Source: Mycobacterium pseudokansasii (GTDB taxonomy: Bacteria; Actinomycetota; Actinomycetes; Mycobacteriales; Mycobacteriaceae). From it: 64,000 nucleotides of DNA. Below are positions 20,851 through 26,375 of the stretch, one piece after another; within the stretch, counting starts at the first letter, position 1, and every line of letters starts with the position of its first letter. The DNA is taken from the NCBI RefSeq assembly GCF_900566075.1, contig NZ_UPHU01000001.1:1178001-1242000 (forward strand). Direction: 5' to 3'. The position numbers were made by a program, and so were the translations under genes. Below the pieces are notes generated by a model. It made no database searches and was not told the DNA's origin. It saw nothing but the letters and a program-made list of their open reading frames with translations.

Positions 20851-20909
20851 GCCGCCGCGCCGCCGATCCGGCCCGTGGCGCCGGTTACCAGTACGCGCTT
20901 GCGTGTCAT
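20847..20909 (-). pseudogene. 20-codon remnant of an NAD(P)-binding SDR/NmrA-like gene
   Basis: From ATG at 20909 the frame reads [20 protein letters not shown] and stops. The first 17 residues are the beta1-glycine-loop start of an extended SDR/NmrA protein (VTGATGRIG), so nearly the whole gene has been lost. The start overlaps the exporter stop as ATGA, and the stop overlaps the methyltransferase start as ATGA. The deletion left a mini-frame that could still pass ribosomes from one gene to the next. Confidence 0.7.
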
Positions 20910-21350
20910 CGGATTTCCCTTTCCAGTTGTTCCCGGTCGAACGTTGTGATGGCTGGTTGCTCGGCCCGCGGCGGCAGCAGCCACGCGACGACGACCGCCG
21001 CGGTCAGCGCGATGCCGGCGCACACCAGCGTGCCCGCCTGCAGGCCGTCGAGGAATGCATGCTGGACGGCATCGCGAATCGCCGTGTTGCGCTGCGCTGG
21101 AAGCTGTCCGATCACCTTGTCCGCCATCGCTATTGAGCGTTGCATTGCTGAGCGGAGGTCATCGGGTAGCCCGGCCGGCGCGGCCGCCGAGGCAAGCCGG
21201 CCGGAGTAGACGGAGGCAAAGACACTGCCCACGATGGCGACGCCGAGGGTGCCGCCGAATTCCCGCGTGGTGTCATTGACCGCCGATCCCATCGCGGCCT
21301 TGTCGACGGACGGGGACCCCATGATGGCCTCGGTGGCCGGTGCCGTCGTC
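20906..21350 (-). pseudogene. MFS drug exporter (DHA2 type), C-terminal fragment
   Basis: The sequence APATEAIMGSPSVDKAAMGSAVNDTTREFGG and the following helix (LGVAIVGSVFASVYSGRL) match the last third of EmrB/QacA-type 14-helix exporters. The last helix is GLQAGTLVCAGIALTAAVVVAWLLPP. Homology begins near 21350; immediately upstream the DNA codes for a WS/DGAT-like fragment in another frame. The N-terminal part of the same exporter lies 3.4 kb away at 24782-25612. The central 150 or so residues (helices 9-12) are absent, so the exporter cannot be functional. Confidence 0.8.
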
Positions 21351-21569
21351 GTGCTCGGGCCCGATGGCAGCCGGCACCCATTGCGGGTAGGTCAGCATGC
21401 ATGCGTCGTCAACCCGCATGCTCAAGTCCGGGCAAGCCCGAGCCCGGCGGCGCACATCTTTGCGTGCACGCTCGAGATCGCGAGGTTCGCCGTCGAACGC
21501 ATAGAGCGGGAACTGATCGTTGGGGATTTTGGCCGACATCCAATAGAACTGCGCGTCGACGGCCGCCAT
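21351..21569 (-). pseudogene. WS/DGAT-like acyltransferase, 5' fragment
   Basis: From ATG at 21569 the frame reads MAAVDAQFYWMSAKIPNDQF and continues to ACPDLSMRVDDACMLTYPQWVPAAIG. This matches the opening of a mycobacterial wax-ester synthase/diacylglycerol acyltransferase subfamily. Similarity ends near 21355, where the DNA becomes the exporter C-terminus; the open frame itself continues to 21273 as unrelated sequence. The HHxxxDG catalytic region is not present. It is the right-hand breakpoint of the mosaic that splits the exporter. Confidence 0.65.
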
Positions 21570-21711
21570 CCGCTGCGCCGCCGCGGTCCTCACACGTGCC
21601 CCGATCGATGACCGCACGCCCCAAAGGGGCAGGGAATAGCGACAATTGGAGCACGCGGGACCCTCTCGCGCTGGCGGGGCCCGGTTCCCACACCCCGTGG
21701 GGCACGCGACG

Positions 21712-23628
21712 TCAGCCGTTTGCGCCGTTGTTACCCTGTGCGCCGGTAGCGCCGGTCTCACCGACGCCGGCGCTTCCGGCGGCGCCGGCCCCGCCGGCGC
21801 CGCCGGTCCCGCCATCGGCGCCCGCACCGCCAACCCCGCCCGTGCCGCTGCCGGACGGACCCAGGCCGGCGGCGCCCCCGACGCCACCGTTACCGCCGGC
21901 CCCGCCGGCCCCGCCGGTCCCGCCCATGCCGCCTGCCCCGGTGCTACCCGCGTGACCCAAGATCCCGCCCGCGCCGCCCGCACCGCCGGCCGCGCCCGCG
22001 CCGCCGGTGCCTCCGGCACCCCCGACACCGCCGTCACCACCGTCACCGCCGTCGCCGCCGGTTGTATTTATGCTGGCACCGCCGCCCCCGCCGCCCCCGC
22101 CAACGGCGCCAGCCGCACCGACCCCTCCGGTTCCGCCGGCACCCCCGACACCGCCGTCGCCGCCGTTGCCGCCCAGAATCCCGCCACGACCCCCGGCGCC
22201 GCCGACCCCGCCGGTCCCGCCGGTGCCGGCGTTGTTGGCAGCGGGACCGCCGGCGCCGCCATGCCCGCCGGTTCCGCCAACGCCGAGCACGCTGCTGTCG
22301 GTGCCGCCGGTGCCGCCCGCGCCGCCCGGCGCGCCGGTACCGCCGGCCCCGCCGACCCCGCCAGTCCCGCCGACAGCAGTGCCAGAGAACGTCGCGGTGG
22401 TGAGGCCGCCGGTGCCGCCGAGTCCGCCCGGCGCGCCGACCCCGCCGTTACCACCGGCACCGCCCGTACCACCCGTCGCAATGCCAGAGGAAACAGTGGT
22501 GAAACCGCCCTTGCCGCCGTCCCCGCCGGGCGCCCCGGTGCCGCCCTGGCCACCGGATCCACCGGAGGCACCTGTTGCACTGCTAGAGGCGCTGGTGCCG
22601 CCGGCGTTGCCGCCGTTGCCGCCGGCCTGCCCGGCAACGGTGCCGGGTGAGCCGTTGCCGCCGGGTGTATTGGCATTGCCGCTGTTGTCGGTGCCGTTGG
22701 CGGCCGGGGTCACCGGGGGCGCGAGACCGGGGTTGGCACCGTCGGCACCGGTGCCACCGATCCCACCGGCCCCGCCGGCCCCGCCATTGCCCCACCACCC
22801 GACGGCGTTGCCGCCGGACCCGCCGGCCCCGCCAGTACCGCCGCCTGCCACGCCCACCCCGCCGGCGCCGCCGGCGCCGCCGTCGCCCACCAGCGTCCCG
22901 CCGGTGCCGCCGTTACCGCCGGCCGCGCCGACCCCGGCATTGCCGCCGGCCCCGCCGTTGCCCCAGAACCCGGCGTTACCGCCGGTGCCGCCGGCCCCGC
23001 CGGTCCCGGCGGCTCCCGCGATCCCGCCTGTCCCGCCGGCACCACCGGAGCCATACAGCGTCCCGCCGGCCCCGCCGGCGCCGCCGGCCGCGCCCGTCCC
23101 CCCGGCCCCGCCGGCACCGCCGTTGCCGAACAGCCCCGCGCCCCCGCCGCTACCGCCGGCCTGGCCGATCGCCCCAGACCCGCCCTTACCCCCGTTGCCC
23201 CACAAAATGCCGCCGTCGCCGCCGGCCTGCCCGGTCCCCGGCGCCCCGTTGGCCCCATCGCCGATCAGTGGCCGCCCCAACAACGCCTCGGTGGGCGCGT
23301 TGACCAGGTTCAACGCGCCTTGCTGCAGCGCCTGCAGCGGCGAGACATTGGCCGCCTCGGCACTCGCATACGACGCCGCACCGGCGGCCAAGGCTTTCAC
23401 GAACTGGTCATGAAACGCCGCAGCCTGCGCCGCCACCGACTGGTAGGCCTGGGCATGCCCGCTAAACAGCGACGCGATGGCCGCCGACACCTCGTCGGCG
23501 CCCGCCGCCAGCAGCCCCGTCGTCGGGGCCGCCGCCAGCGCCCGGGCGGCATTGATCGATGACCCAATCGTGGCCAAATCGCCGGCCACCGCGCCAACAA
23601 TCTCGGGAGCTGCGATCACATACGACAT
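21712..23628 (-). CDS. PE_PGRS family protein
   Basis: A 638-residue PE_PGRS protein. The ATG at 23628 follows GGAAGGA by 7 bases and gives [22 protein letters not shown], the standard PE opening. Residues 1-95 are the PE helical hairpin, followed by the linker [16 protein letters not shown]. The rest is Gly-Gly-x repeats (GGTGGAGG, GGNGGAGG) to the end, with no distinct C-terminal domain. PE_PGRS proteins are exported through type VII secretion and sit at the cell surface. It is the only intact gene inside the fragment mosaic between the two halves of the exporter. Confidence 0.92.
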
Positions 23629-23756
23629 CGGCATTCCTTCCGCCATCAACATCGGGCTAGCGGTTGCCGCCCGGCTGGTCACCGGCCTTGGCGAGAGACT
23701 AAACCTGCCCTGAACGGGTGTCAGGCGTTTCGACCCGACGCGCGGCCAAACGCGCC

Positions 23757-23840
23757 TCAGCTGGGTGAGCCGATGAACGCCAGGATCAACTCGGCAACCT
23801 CGTCCGGCTGTTCAAGCTGCAGGAAGTGCCCGGCGTGCTT
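23757..23840 (-). pseudogene. Alpha/beta-hydrolase C-terminal remnant
   Basis: The 27 codons ending at 23757 read [21 protein letters not shown], the typical end of an alpha/beta-hydrolase (catalytic-His region [12 protein letters not shown]). They are fused in frame after a fragment of an unrelated hypothetical protein. Only this tail of the hydrolase remains. Confidence 0.6.
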
Positions 23841-24784
23841 GTTAGTGCGCAGGCGGGTTAGGTCGTAGCTGACCTGGTTCATCGAGTAGTCGGTGCCGTC
23901 GAGCAGGCCGGTCATCAAGGCGCGCGGGCTCTTGTTGGTGATGCCGGTGACGGCGAGCACGCTGGTGCCTAGAAGCGCGGGTCAGGGCTTGGACCCGGGG
24001 GTCGCCGAACCGTAAGGCCGGGGCCCTCCTGCCATCCTCGGTGAGGGTGGGCTGTGCGATCCGCTCAAAGGCTGGACTCGCAAGGACGCAGCCCTGGCCG
24101 ACACGTTCAGTATCAAGCAGTATCAAGCAGGCGATGGTTGACGTCACGAGCTTTGGCCTGTAGTTCGTCGAAATGGATCAGGCGGCGATGGCAGCGCAGG
24201 TCATCGGGATTGATCACGGTCTCGATGCGCAACGCGCGCCCGTCTTTCACATACTGCTTGATGGGGGAACTTTTGTAGAAGGCGTTGATGAGGACCTGGG
24301 TACCGCGGGTGACGATCCTGGCGCGGGGCATGCAGCCGAGTTTGATGGGCTGGCCCAGCCCTCGGGGCCTGTGGAAGATCAGCTCCACGCTGTCGGGGCG
24401 GCCGATGTCGAGATTGTCAGCAACCAGGGCTTCCAAGAACCCCCGGGTGTGTCGTGGGCGCCGAAGACCAGGGTGCGTGAGACCTCGACTTGGCGCATCG
24501 ACAGCTCCCACCAGTAGCCCGCGGTGCGGTCGTGCTCGGTCAGCGGTAGCGGCAGGCGACTTATCCAGCGCTCGAAGAACACCGTGATGGTGCCCGGGCC
24601 CAGCCGATCACAGATCGCCTCCAGCGCGTCGGGATCCGCGCAGGAGGCAAACCCATTGGACAACTCGCTGAACGCGATGCCGGCCTGGGTGGCTTGGCGT
24701 TTGGCCCACTCGTGACCGTTGAGCCGCACCTTCATCGGGTACGGAAAATAGGAGCAGATCTTGATGAACGCCGGTCCGAAGTCA
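23841..24784 (-). pseudogene. Frameshifted, truncated conserved hypothetical gene
   Basis: Segments in three frames join to one protein: FIKICSYFPYPMKVRLNGHE, then GPGTITVFFERWISRLPLPL and YWWELSMRQVEVSRTLVFGAHD, then RGFLEALVADNLDIGRPDSV and SSPIKQYVKDGRALRIETVI, then VGQGCVLASPAFERIAQPTL, then VTGITNKSPRALMTGLLDGT. I recall this as a roughly 450-500-residue actinobacterial family of unknown, mobile-like distribution. The N-terminus is missing (junction with the exporter near 24785) and the C-terminus is replaced by a hydrolase tail. Breaks are a shift near 24450 in ACACACCCGGGGG, a 10-base duplication at 24111-24130, and another shift near 23960-24000. Confidence 0.7.
24111..24130. repeat. 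Perfect 10-base tandem duplication causing a frameshift
   Basis: TATCAAGCAG occurs twice in direct succession. On the coding (minus) strand it turns RLLDTERVGQG into RLLDTA-stop. Removing one copy restores an uninterrupted frame through the conserved hypothetical gene. It is a clear inactivating mutation. Confidence 0.85.
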
Positions 24785-25612
24785 ACGTCCTACTAGGCTG
24801 CCGCCCGAGAAGCACCGGTTGGCGAACACCGACATTTCCAGCATCGGCTGGCTGCTGCGCCGCTCCCACAGCGCGAACCCGAGGAGAATCGTTGCGGCCA
24901 AGGCGAATCCGGTTACCGCACGGGTGCTGGTCCATCCCCAGCTGGGTGCCTGGATGACGGTGTAGACCAGGGCGGTGATCCCGGTCGCCGACAGCAGCAG
25001 GCCGGCAGTGTCGACCCAGGGCGCCGCCGGGTCGCGCGGGGTGGGCACGAACAGGATGCCGCCGGCGATGGCGGCTACCGCGATCGGAATGTTCACCATG
25101 AAAATCGAGCCCCACCAGAAGTGTTCGAGTAACCAGCCGCCGGTGATGGGCCCGACGGCGACCCCGACACCGACCATGGCCGCCCACAATCCGATCGCCT
25201 TGGCGCGTAGTACGGGATCGGTGAAGATGTTGGTGATCAGTCCCAGCGTGGTCGAGAAGATCACCGCCGCGCCGACACCCATGGCGGCTCGTGCCGCGAT
25301 CAGGGCATCTGCCGAATTGACTTGCGCGGCAATACCTGAGGTGATCGCGAACAGCGCGAGGCCGGCAACGAGCCAGCCCCGCCGGCCGTAGCGGTCGGAC
25401 AGGCTGCCGGCCGAGAGCAGCAGGCCCGACATCACCAGGGTGTAGGCATCGACGATCCATTGCAGCGCCGCGGTGTCGGCGCCGAGTTCGCGTGACAGCG
25501 TGGGCAGGGCGACGTTGACGACGGTGGCGTCGACGCTGATGACGAAGACGGACAGGCAGATGACGGCTAGCGCGGGAATCGGGTGCGGGCGGATGACCGG
25601 TCGAGTGTTCAT
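24782..25612 (-). pseudogene. MFS drug exporter (DHA2 type), N-terminal fragment
   Basis: From ATG at 25612, about 275 residues cover the first eight helices of a 14-helix EmrB/QacA-type exporter. Visible marks are DATVVNVALPTLSRELGAD in helix 1, the motif A loop GSLSDRYGRRGWLVAGL, and motif C-like VGVAVGPITGGWLL. The frame ends SVFANRCFSGGSLVGR at the junction with an unrelated hypothetical gene. The C-terminal part is at 20906-21350. The divergent HxlR regulator gene is intact, so its presumed target has been destroyed or reduced to a half-transporter. Confidence 0.82.
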
Positions 25613-25691: not shown

Positions 25692-26375
25692 GTGGCCGCC
25701 CGCAACTACAACCAGAACTGCCCCATTGCGCGCGGGCTCGACGTCCTGGGTGAGCGATGGACGTTGCTGATCCTGCGCGAGCTGGTGGGGGGAGCCCGTC
25801 GCTACGGTGACCTGCGCGCCGAGCTGCCCGGGATCGCCACCAACCTGCTTGCCGATCGGCTCAAAGAACTCCACGACGCCGGACTCATCGACCGGACCGA
25901 CCTGCCGGCCCCGGTCGGGCGCACCGTCTACACCCTCAGCGACCTCGGCTGGCGGCGGGTGCTGCCCGTCTTGCAGAGCCTTGCCTGGTTTGGCCTGGAC
26001 CGGGTTGATCCGATCGACAGCGGTCCGGTGTCGCCATTGAACGGCTTTCTTGCCGGAATCCTGCTGGGCTTCAACTCGGCCGATGCCACCGGCGTGGAAG
26101 CGACCTGCCGTGCCGAAATCGACGGGCGCCGTTTCGAGTTCGCCGTCACGCAAGGACGTCTGGCCGGCGCTGTCGGCCAACCTTCGGTCACCATCACCGC
26201 CAGCGCGGCGGATCTGGTCACCGCCCGCCTCGGGGCGGGGGACGCCGAGCGCGCGGCAGCGCTGCGCCGGGTCAGGTTTGCCGGTGACCAGCGCGCCATT
26301 GACGCGCTGCGCAGCGTGTTTTCGCTGCCGGAGGCCTCCTCGTCGGGAGCGGGCGAAACAGGTGAGTTTCGATAG
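25692..26375 (+). CDS. HxlR family regulator with SCP2-like C-terminal domain
   Basis: A 227-residue protein. Residues 1-100 are an HxlR winged helix-turn-helix (CPIARGLDVLGERWTLLILREL, then RRYGDLRAELPGIATNLLADRLKEL and the wing GRTVYTLSDLG). Residues 130-215 (CRAEIDGRRFEFAVTQG, SVTITASAADLVTARLGAG) look like an SCP2/sterol-carrier-like fold, seen in some mycobacterial HxlR proteins, which could bind a lipophilic ligand. It starts at GTG 25692 and is divergent from the exporter fragment, so its ancestral role was probably to control that exporter. Confidence 0.88.
   Translation: MAARNYNQNCPIARGLDVLGERWTLLILRELVGGARRYGDLRAELPGIATNLLADRLKELHDAGLIDRTDLPAPVGRTVYTLSDLGWRRVLPVLQSLAWFGLDRVDPIDSGPVSPLNGFLAGILLGFNSADATGVEATCRAEIDGRRFEFAVTQGRLAGAVGQPSVTITASAADLVTARLGAGDAERAAALRRVRFAGDQRAIDALRSVFSLPEASSSGAGETGEFR

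Follow-up and report, generated by a model that had tools for sequence, protein, structure and literature searches.

Kalpana et al. reportedly described in 1991 how linear DNA integrates illegitimately in slow-growing mycobacteria. For a 2-kb linear fragment integrated illegitimately in M. avium, one report gives target deletions of 2–669 bp in all 13 sequenced integrations; all 13 lay inside coding regions, their neighbouring sequence had no special structure, and 12 of the 13 inserts were whole single fragments (PMC3511198). Work on M. bovis cited in the same text describes clustered insertions and larger deletions (PMC3511198). Distributive conjugal transfer is a further route by which the DNA of other mycobacteria enters the chromosome, and a conjugal transfer study lists no recombinants from M. 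kansasii or M. lacus donors, nor any with M. kansasii as the recipient (PMC8262963).

Illegitimate integration in slow-growing mycobacteria is already known, and the insertion analysed here is a new natural example of it, which comparison with relatives resolves well. The unannotated element family behind one of its two blocks offers the more unusual lead. Among the papers listed in literature searches, none had a title or opening of the abstract that dealt with this insertion.

A DHA2-type exporter gene is interrupted by a 3,444-bp insert

The window, i.e., the whole stretch of 64,000 nucleotides that was analysed, is chromosomal and belongs to a Mycobacterium genome (M. pseudokansasii) of 6.43 Mb in two contigs with a stated completeness of 100%. 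Its sampled near relatives include G057, M. innocens (G091) and M. persicum (G158), and in the conserved part of the flanks of the locus the DNA identity to relatives is 92–96%. The organism is probably a member of the M. kansasii complex. The locus consists of the following main parts:

25692–26375, plus strand: intact HxlR-type regulator gene, divergent, beside the exporter (Pfam HxlR, 67.4 bits)
24795–25612, minus strand: exporter piece N, the first ~273 codons of a DHA2-type exporter gene
21351–24794, no strand: insert of 3,444 bp, replacing 303 bp of the exporter present in G057
20906–21350, minus strand: exporter piece C, the last exporter part, with an open frame at 20906–21322

In G057, the nearest relative found, the exporter gene is uninterrupted, and pieces N and C both lie inside a single 539-residue stop-to-stop frame (locus L023), matching its residues 20–291 with 91.9% and its residues 403–539 with 91.3% identity, respectively. 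The sequence-only reading had assigned the two pieces to one family on the same strand, and this frame bears it out. DNA alignment showed the window and G057 to be colinear at 92–93% identity up to 21350, with colinearity resuming at 24795. The 303 bp lost in between correspond to about 101 codons, fewer than the roughly 150 residues initially thought to be missing.

The break is constant across relatives. At 24795 it is identical against all 12 relatives compared, and on the piece C side similarity stops at 21340–21350 in 11 of them, the twelfth (G074) having no piece C match. That the same break recurs across relatives is more than chance. Among 395 other genomes no match spanned 24790–24795 (E limit 1e-45, best two candidates per genome); the exporter matches listed in this search start at 24795, and the insert matches listed end at or before 24790. 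The junction nevertheless has a counterpart in protein P0122 (276 residues, encoded on a 16-kb contig, in a cluster of five members), which has the same junction-encoded end as the window allele and differs from it at two residues. As a second allele with this end, P0122 makes an assembly error unlikely and shows that the join occurs in more than a single assembly.

Piece N matched the Pfam family MFS_1 with 111.6 bits (cut-off 33.4), and its best NCBIfam matches were LfrA, SmvA and QepA, all below the full-length cut-offs. No Pfam family matched piece C; in NCBIfam, the ends of the QepA and LfrA models matched it weakly. The TIGR00711 model scored 148 bits against a cut-off of 230, the remaining gene being a fragment. 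The open frame of piece N continues past the break to a stop at 24782, within the insert. Neither piece alone is able to form a complete exporter.

In 23 loci out of 26 from relatives, G057 included, a single open frame holds both pieces (12 relatives plus 14 of 80 further loci, several genomes being counted twice). The three exceptions are an M. persicum genome, which occurs twice and has two different overlapping frames, and G074, where the C part was not found. In M. persicum (L025:6530-8139 / L120) and G074 (L026:6547-7404) the same exporter gene thus appears to be broken in other ways; its loss may be under way independently in other members of the group, and single frameshifts could be sequencing errors. 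Differences from G057 per codon position amount to 18/3/29 in piece N and 4/7/19 in piece C, of which 10/1/8 and 1/2/3, respectively, could be polarised to the lineage of the window; these are too few for the loss of the exporter to be dated by a selection signal.

Two blocks and three joins make up the insert

The insert resolves into two blocks, connected to each other and to the exporter by three joins:

21350–21352, no strand: join between exporter and WS/DGAT, at most one shared base
21352–23837, minus strand: block 1, one colinear match to genome G029 (L077 4328-6745)
21352–21588 (inner end approximate), minus strand: 5′ part of a WS/DGAT gene, truncated by the exporter join, by DNA similarity to G029
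21712–23628, minus strand: PE_PGRS gene, intact, with the ATG probably at 23628 and the frame open to 23682
23757–23837, minus strand: end of an alpha/beta-hydrolase gene, last 26 codons and stop, by similarity to the G029 gene
23838–23846, no strand: join between hydrolase and block 2, a few bases of ambiguous origin
23841–24790, minus strand: block 2, decayed internal piece of the gene of an IS-like element, residues 152–465 of 538
24790–24795, no strand: join between block 2 and exporter, four bases (24791–24794) explained by neither side

At the first join, exporter similarity extends to 21350 and WS/DGAT similarity begins at 21351–21352. Near 23839 the similarity to the hydrolase fades out; that to the element is secure from 23847 and ends at 24790, with exporter similarity beginning at 24795. 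All three joins are located outside the PGRS repeats. Checked for microhomology, the two exporter joins share at most one base and offer no usable homology, though up to about three bases of microhomology could hide since the sampled donors reach no more than ~86% identity. The outer joins carry no duplicated bases, and 303 bp of the target are gone. Transposition of the whole insert, already disfavoured in the sequence-only reading, was rejected on the strength of this absent duplication together with the lost target.

Block 1 aligned to G029 with 82.7% identity over 2,505 columns. The corresponding G029 locus (L077:3503-7754) holds an alpha/beta-hydrolase, a PE_PGRS and a WS/DGAT gene, all complete and consecutive on one strand; the hydrolase gene matches Abhydrolase_1 and the WS/DGAT gene WS_DGAT_C as well as WS_DGAT_cat. 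A relative with complete genes in the same arrangement therefore does exist for this block, but there the genes do not lie inside an exporter. In a global alignment with G029, identity was 87.6% for PE, 86.0% for PGRS (with six gap columns in 1.6 kb), 85.2% for the hydrolase tail, 78.5% for the WS/DGAT start, 73.6% for the spacer upstream of PE, and 69.4% for positions 21589–21711, which contain 74 gap columns. The four-piece mosaic assembled by serial recombination, as initially proposed, is not needed, as two blocks and three joins suffice. The WS/DGAT 5′ fragment named in that proposal is present, but it is contiguous with PE_PGRS and the hydrolase tail, colinear with G029, and not a separate piece. 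The hydrolase tail was likewise recognised rightly, but only 26 codons belong to it, and the residues upstream in the same frame come from the hypothetical gene, i.e., block 2.

The single PE_PGRS gene within the split exporter is intact, as had been stated: an N-terminal PE domain (PF00934, 114.6 bits) is followed by PGRS (PF21526, 42.5 bits) in one open frame, with both the whole gene and its upstream region retained. The PE part differs from G029 at 36 of 291 sites (9/8/19 by codon position). This excess at third positions (19 of 36) suggests that the PE_PGRS gene has been coding in the compared lineages, though it is not necessarily still used here.

Matches to the hydrolase and to WS/DGAT are directly adjacent in seven of 11 loci, including the own locus of the genome. 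Of the other four, G029 and G117 have intervening DNA and two are without a hydrolase match. In G117 (L078:4469-6170), 1.7 kb separate the hydrolase tail from the WS/DGAT start, with no PGRS match. The own pair, near G000:C1 4.826 Mb, consists of two open frames 4 bp apart and has no PE_PGRS. Only G029 was found to have the PE region directly next to this hydrolase tail, in searches of 196 genomes (best three candidates per genome) and 396 genomes (best two).

The WS/DGAT start of the insert is 85.3% identical to M. simulans, 84% to M. riyadhense, 81.2% to G029, 74.4% to the own locus and 72% to G057. In the WS/DGAT tree the own and G057 loci pair with a support of 100/99, apart from the insert, and forcing the insert to group with them gave a p-AU of 0.07. 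These values are suggestive of a foreign origin of the WS/DGAT start, not proof of it. The hydrolase tail, with 84 bp too short to tell its origin, is closest to the own locus (89%).

Block 2 derives from a large IS-like family

Block 2 is 86.2% identical to a gene for a 538-residue protein on a plasmid of M. riyadhense, relative to which it carries indels and is cut off at both ends. What had been described as a truncated conserved hypothetical gene is indeed a fragment, but an internal part, with indels, of the gene of an IS-like element. It groups with the M. riyadhense plasmid copy and G117, while a grouping with the two nearest copies in its own genome was rejected (p-AU 0.005). The M. 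riyadhense plasmid carries a PE gene at a distance of 2 kb from its block-2 gene copy; since the relative strand of the two is opposite to that in the window, the plasmid was dismissed as source.

The family is very large. One query returned at least 7,960 members among the best 8,000 candidates and a second query, 42–43% identical, at least 7,996 among the best 8,000. By eye, many of the listed relatives are located on contigs of only ~1.8–2.5 kb, as collapsed repeats would give. The family had no Pfam or NCBIfam match up to an E value of 1, and no significant match in PHROGs (best E 0.035) or PDB (E 0.92). A second relative, ~26% identical, lies directly beside the block-2 gene in the own genome (L081:3999-5489) and on the M. 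riyadhense plasmid (L091:4450-5940).

The genome of the window contains two types of repeats at unrelated places that consist mostly of the block-2 family gene, type 1 with three copies of ~1.81 kb (99.7–99.9% identical) and type 2 with two copies of ~1.83 kb (99.6% identical). The IS-like copies in this genome are:

L187:3349-5159
L188:3193-5003
L189:3497-5307
L081:5654-7479
L190:3489-5314

Four copies of ~1.87 kb, 97.3–97.7% identical to one reference, were found in genome G002. M. lepromatosis has two identical copies, for which segmental duplication is possible instead. All three type-1 copies have CTAG at both borders, and for one of them the unoccupied site in G074 reads CGCTAG once. In a scan of the ends of three copies, terminal inverted repeats of at least 12 nt were absent; some IS families lack such repeats. 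The parent family of block 2 behaves as an insertion element, and the insert holds part of a mobile element's gene. The sequence-only reading saw no transposase in the insert, which is doubtful, since block 2 comes from the long gene of such an element, one that Pfam and NCBIfam do not recognise. The borders of the insert are not the ends of the element, and the insertion as it stands was therefore not made by transposition.

Origin of the insertion

We consider it likely, with a probability of roughly 0.7, that foreign DNA was captured when illegitimate recombination, with Ku/LigD NHEJ as its most probable form, mended a broken exporter gene. A break would have arisen inside the exporter gene, its ends would have lost 303 bp, and ~3.4 kb of DNA related to other slow-growing mycobacteria would have been joined in, made up of a block with PE_PGRS from a hydrolase-PE_PGRS-WS/DGAT locus and a defunct fragment from an IS-like element. 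This would have destroyed the exporter and added a complete PE_PGRS gene. We infer a linear form of the captured DNA, NHEJ as the agent and a single event. The genome encodes Ku (184 bits) with an adjacent LigD-polymerase match (301 bits), a presence that is permissive only. Capture by end joining is favoured by the constant break, the colinear block 1, the non-own block 2, the near-homology-free joins, Ku/LigD, the parallel with M. avium and P0122. Against it count that no donor exceeds ~86% identity, that the WS/DGAT test gave a p-AU of 0.07, that the hydrolase tail is nearest to the own locus, and that two joined blocks are found here vs whole single fragments in most of the M. avium inserts.

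In a stepwise history, an entire IS-like element from the family of block 2 would first have transposed into the exporter; its ends, together with part of the exporter, would then have been lost through deletions and a further insertion, the one that brought in block 1. Block 2 does border the exporter directly and comes from an IS-like family that is multicopy and active in this genome, but with neither element end present (residues 152–465 of 538 only), nearest copies that are not the genome's own, no intermediate among the genomes searched and at least two extra events required, we regard this course as rather unlikely. The odds are poorer still for block 1 as the relic of a second hydrolase-WS/DGAT locus of the own lineage, relocated by internal rearrangement. 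Although the 89% identity of the hydrolase tail to the own locus fits such a relic and the forced WS/DGAT grouping was not rejected at 0.05, the own and G057 loci pair away from the insert, the WS/DGAT start is 74% identical to the own locus vs 84–85% to M. riyadhense and M. simulans, the own two frames are 4 bp apart without PE_PGRS, and block 2 is, on separate evidence, not the genome's own.

Repeated PGRS tracts abound in these genomes, and many PGRS-internal matches occur at several loci, as would suit an assembly of the pieces by recombination between PGRS repeats. This was a possibility raised by the sequence-only reading, but every one of the three joins lies outside PGRS, the PGRS part is colinear with G029 over 1.6 kb with six gap columns, and both of its flanks come from the same locus, which leaves such recombination very improbable. 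An artefact of assembly or sequencing is hardly credible in a two-contig genome of the stated 100% completeness, with the same junction end in the other allele, P0122.

To capture by end joining we add a wider reading, to which we give even odds: block 2 would be the relic of a very large unannotated transposable family, and such debris, captured with PE_PGRS by end joining, would form a route for PE_PGRS genes between species. The family in this reading is ~1.8 kb long, encodes one protein of 530–540 residues without a Pfam or NCBIfam model, is inserted at CTAG or duplicates it, has no clear inverted repeats, and occurs in mycobacteria, on mycobacterial plasmids and in many metagenome contigs.

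Comparison with known systems

The locus presents a natural case in which homology-independent joining seems to have brought in a complete PE_PGRS gene from a different mycobacterial lineage, at the cost of an exporter gene; the laboratory counterpart of such joining is known from marker DNA. If the block-2 element family is real, a common mobile element has been overlooked by present annotation. Like insertion sequences, this family has near-identical 1.8-kb copies at unrelated places and, in one type, CTAG borders. Unlike them, it has no recognised transposase model or clear terminal inverted repeats, and the insert keeps an internal piece only.

With distributive conjugal transfer the locus shares the entry of other mycobacteria's DNA into the chromosome, but that process swaps corresponding sequences by homologous recombination, whereas the flanks of the insert share none (PMC8262963). 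As the joins offer no usable homology, homology-driven conjugal transfer does not fit. The G029 locus equals block 1 in its three genes, their order and strand, with 83% DNA identity over 2.5 kb; it differs in that its three genes are complete, while the window has the outer two truncated and placed within an exporter. The integrations in M. avium resemble the insertion in their non-homologous site within a coding region, the small target deletion (303 bp here) and the plain sequence of the joins. In contrast to them, the present case is a natural one in which DNA resembling that of other mycobacteria was joined as two blocks with a filler of a few bases.
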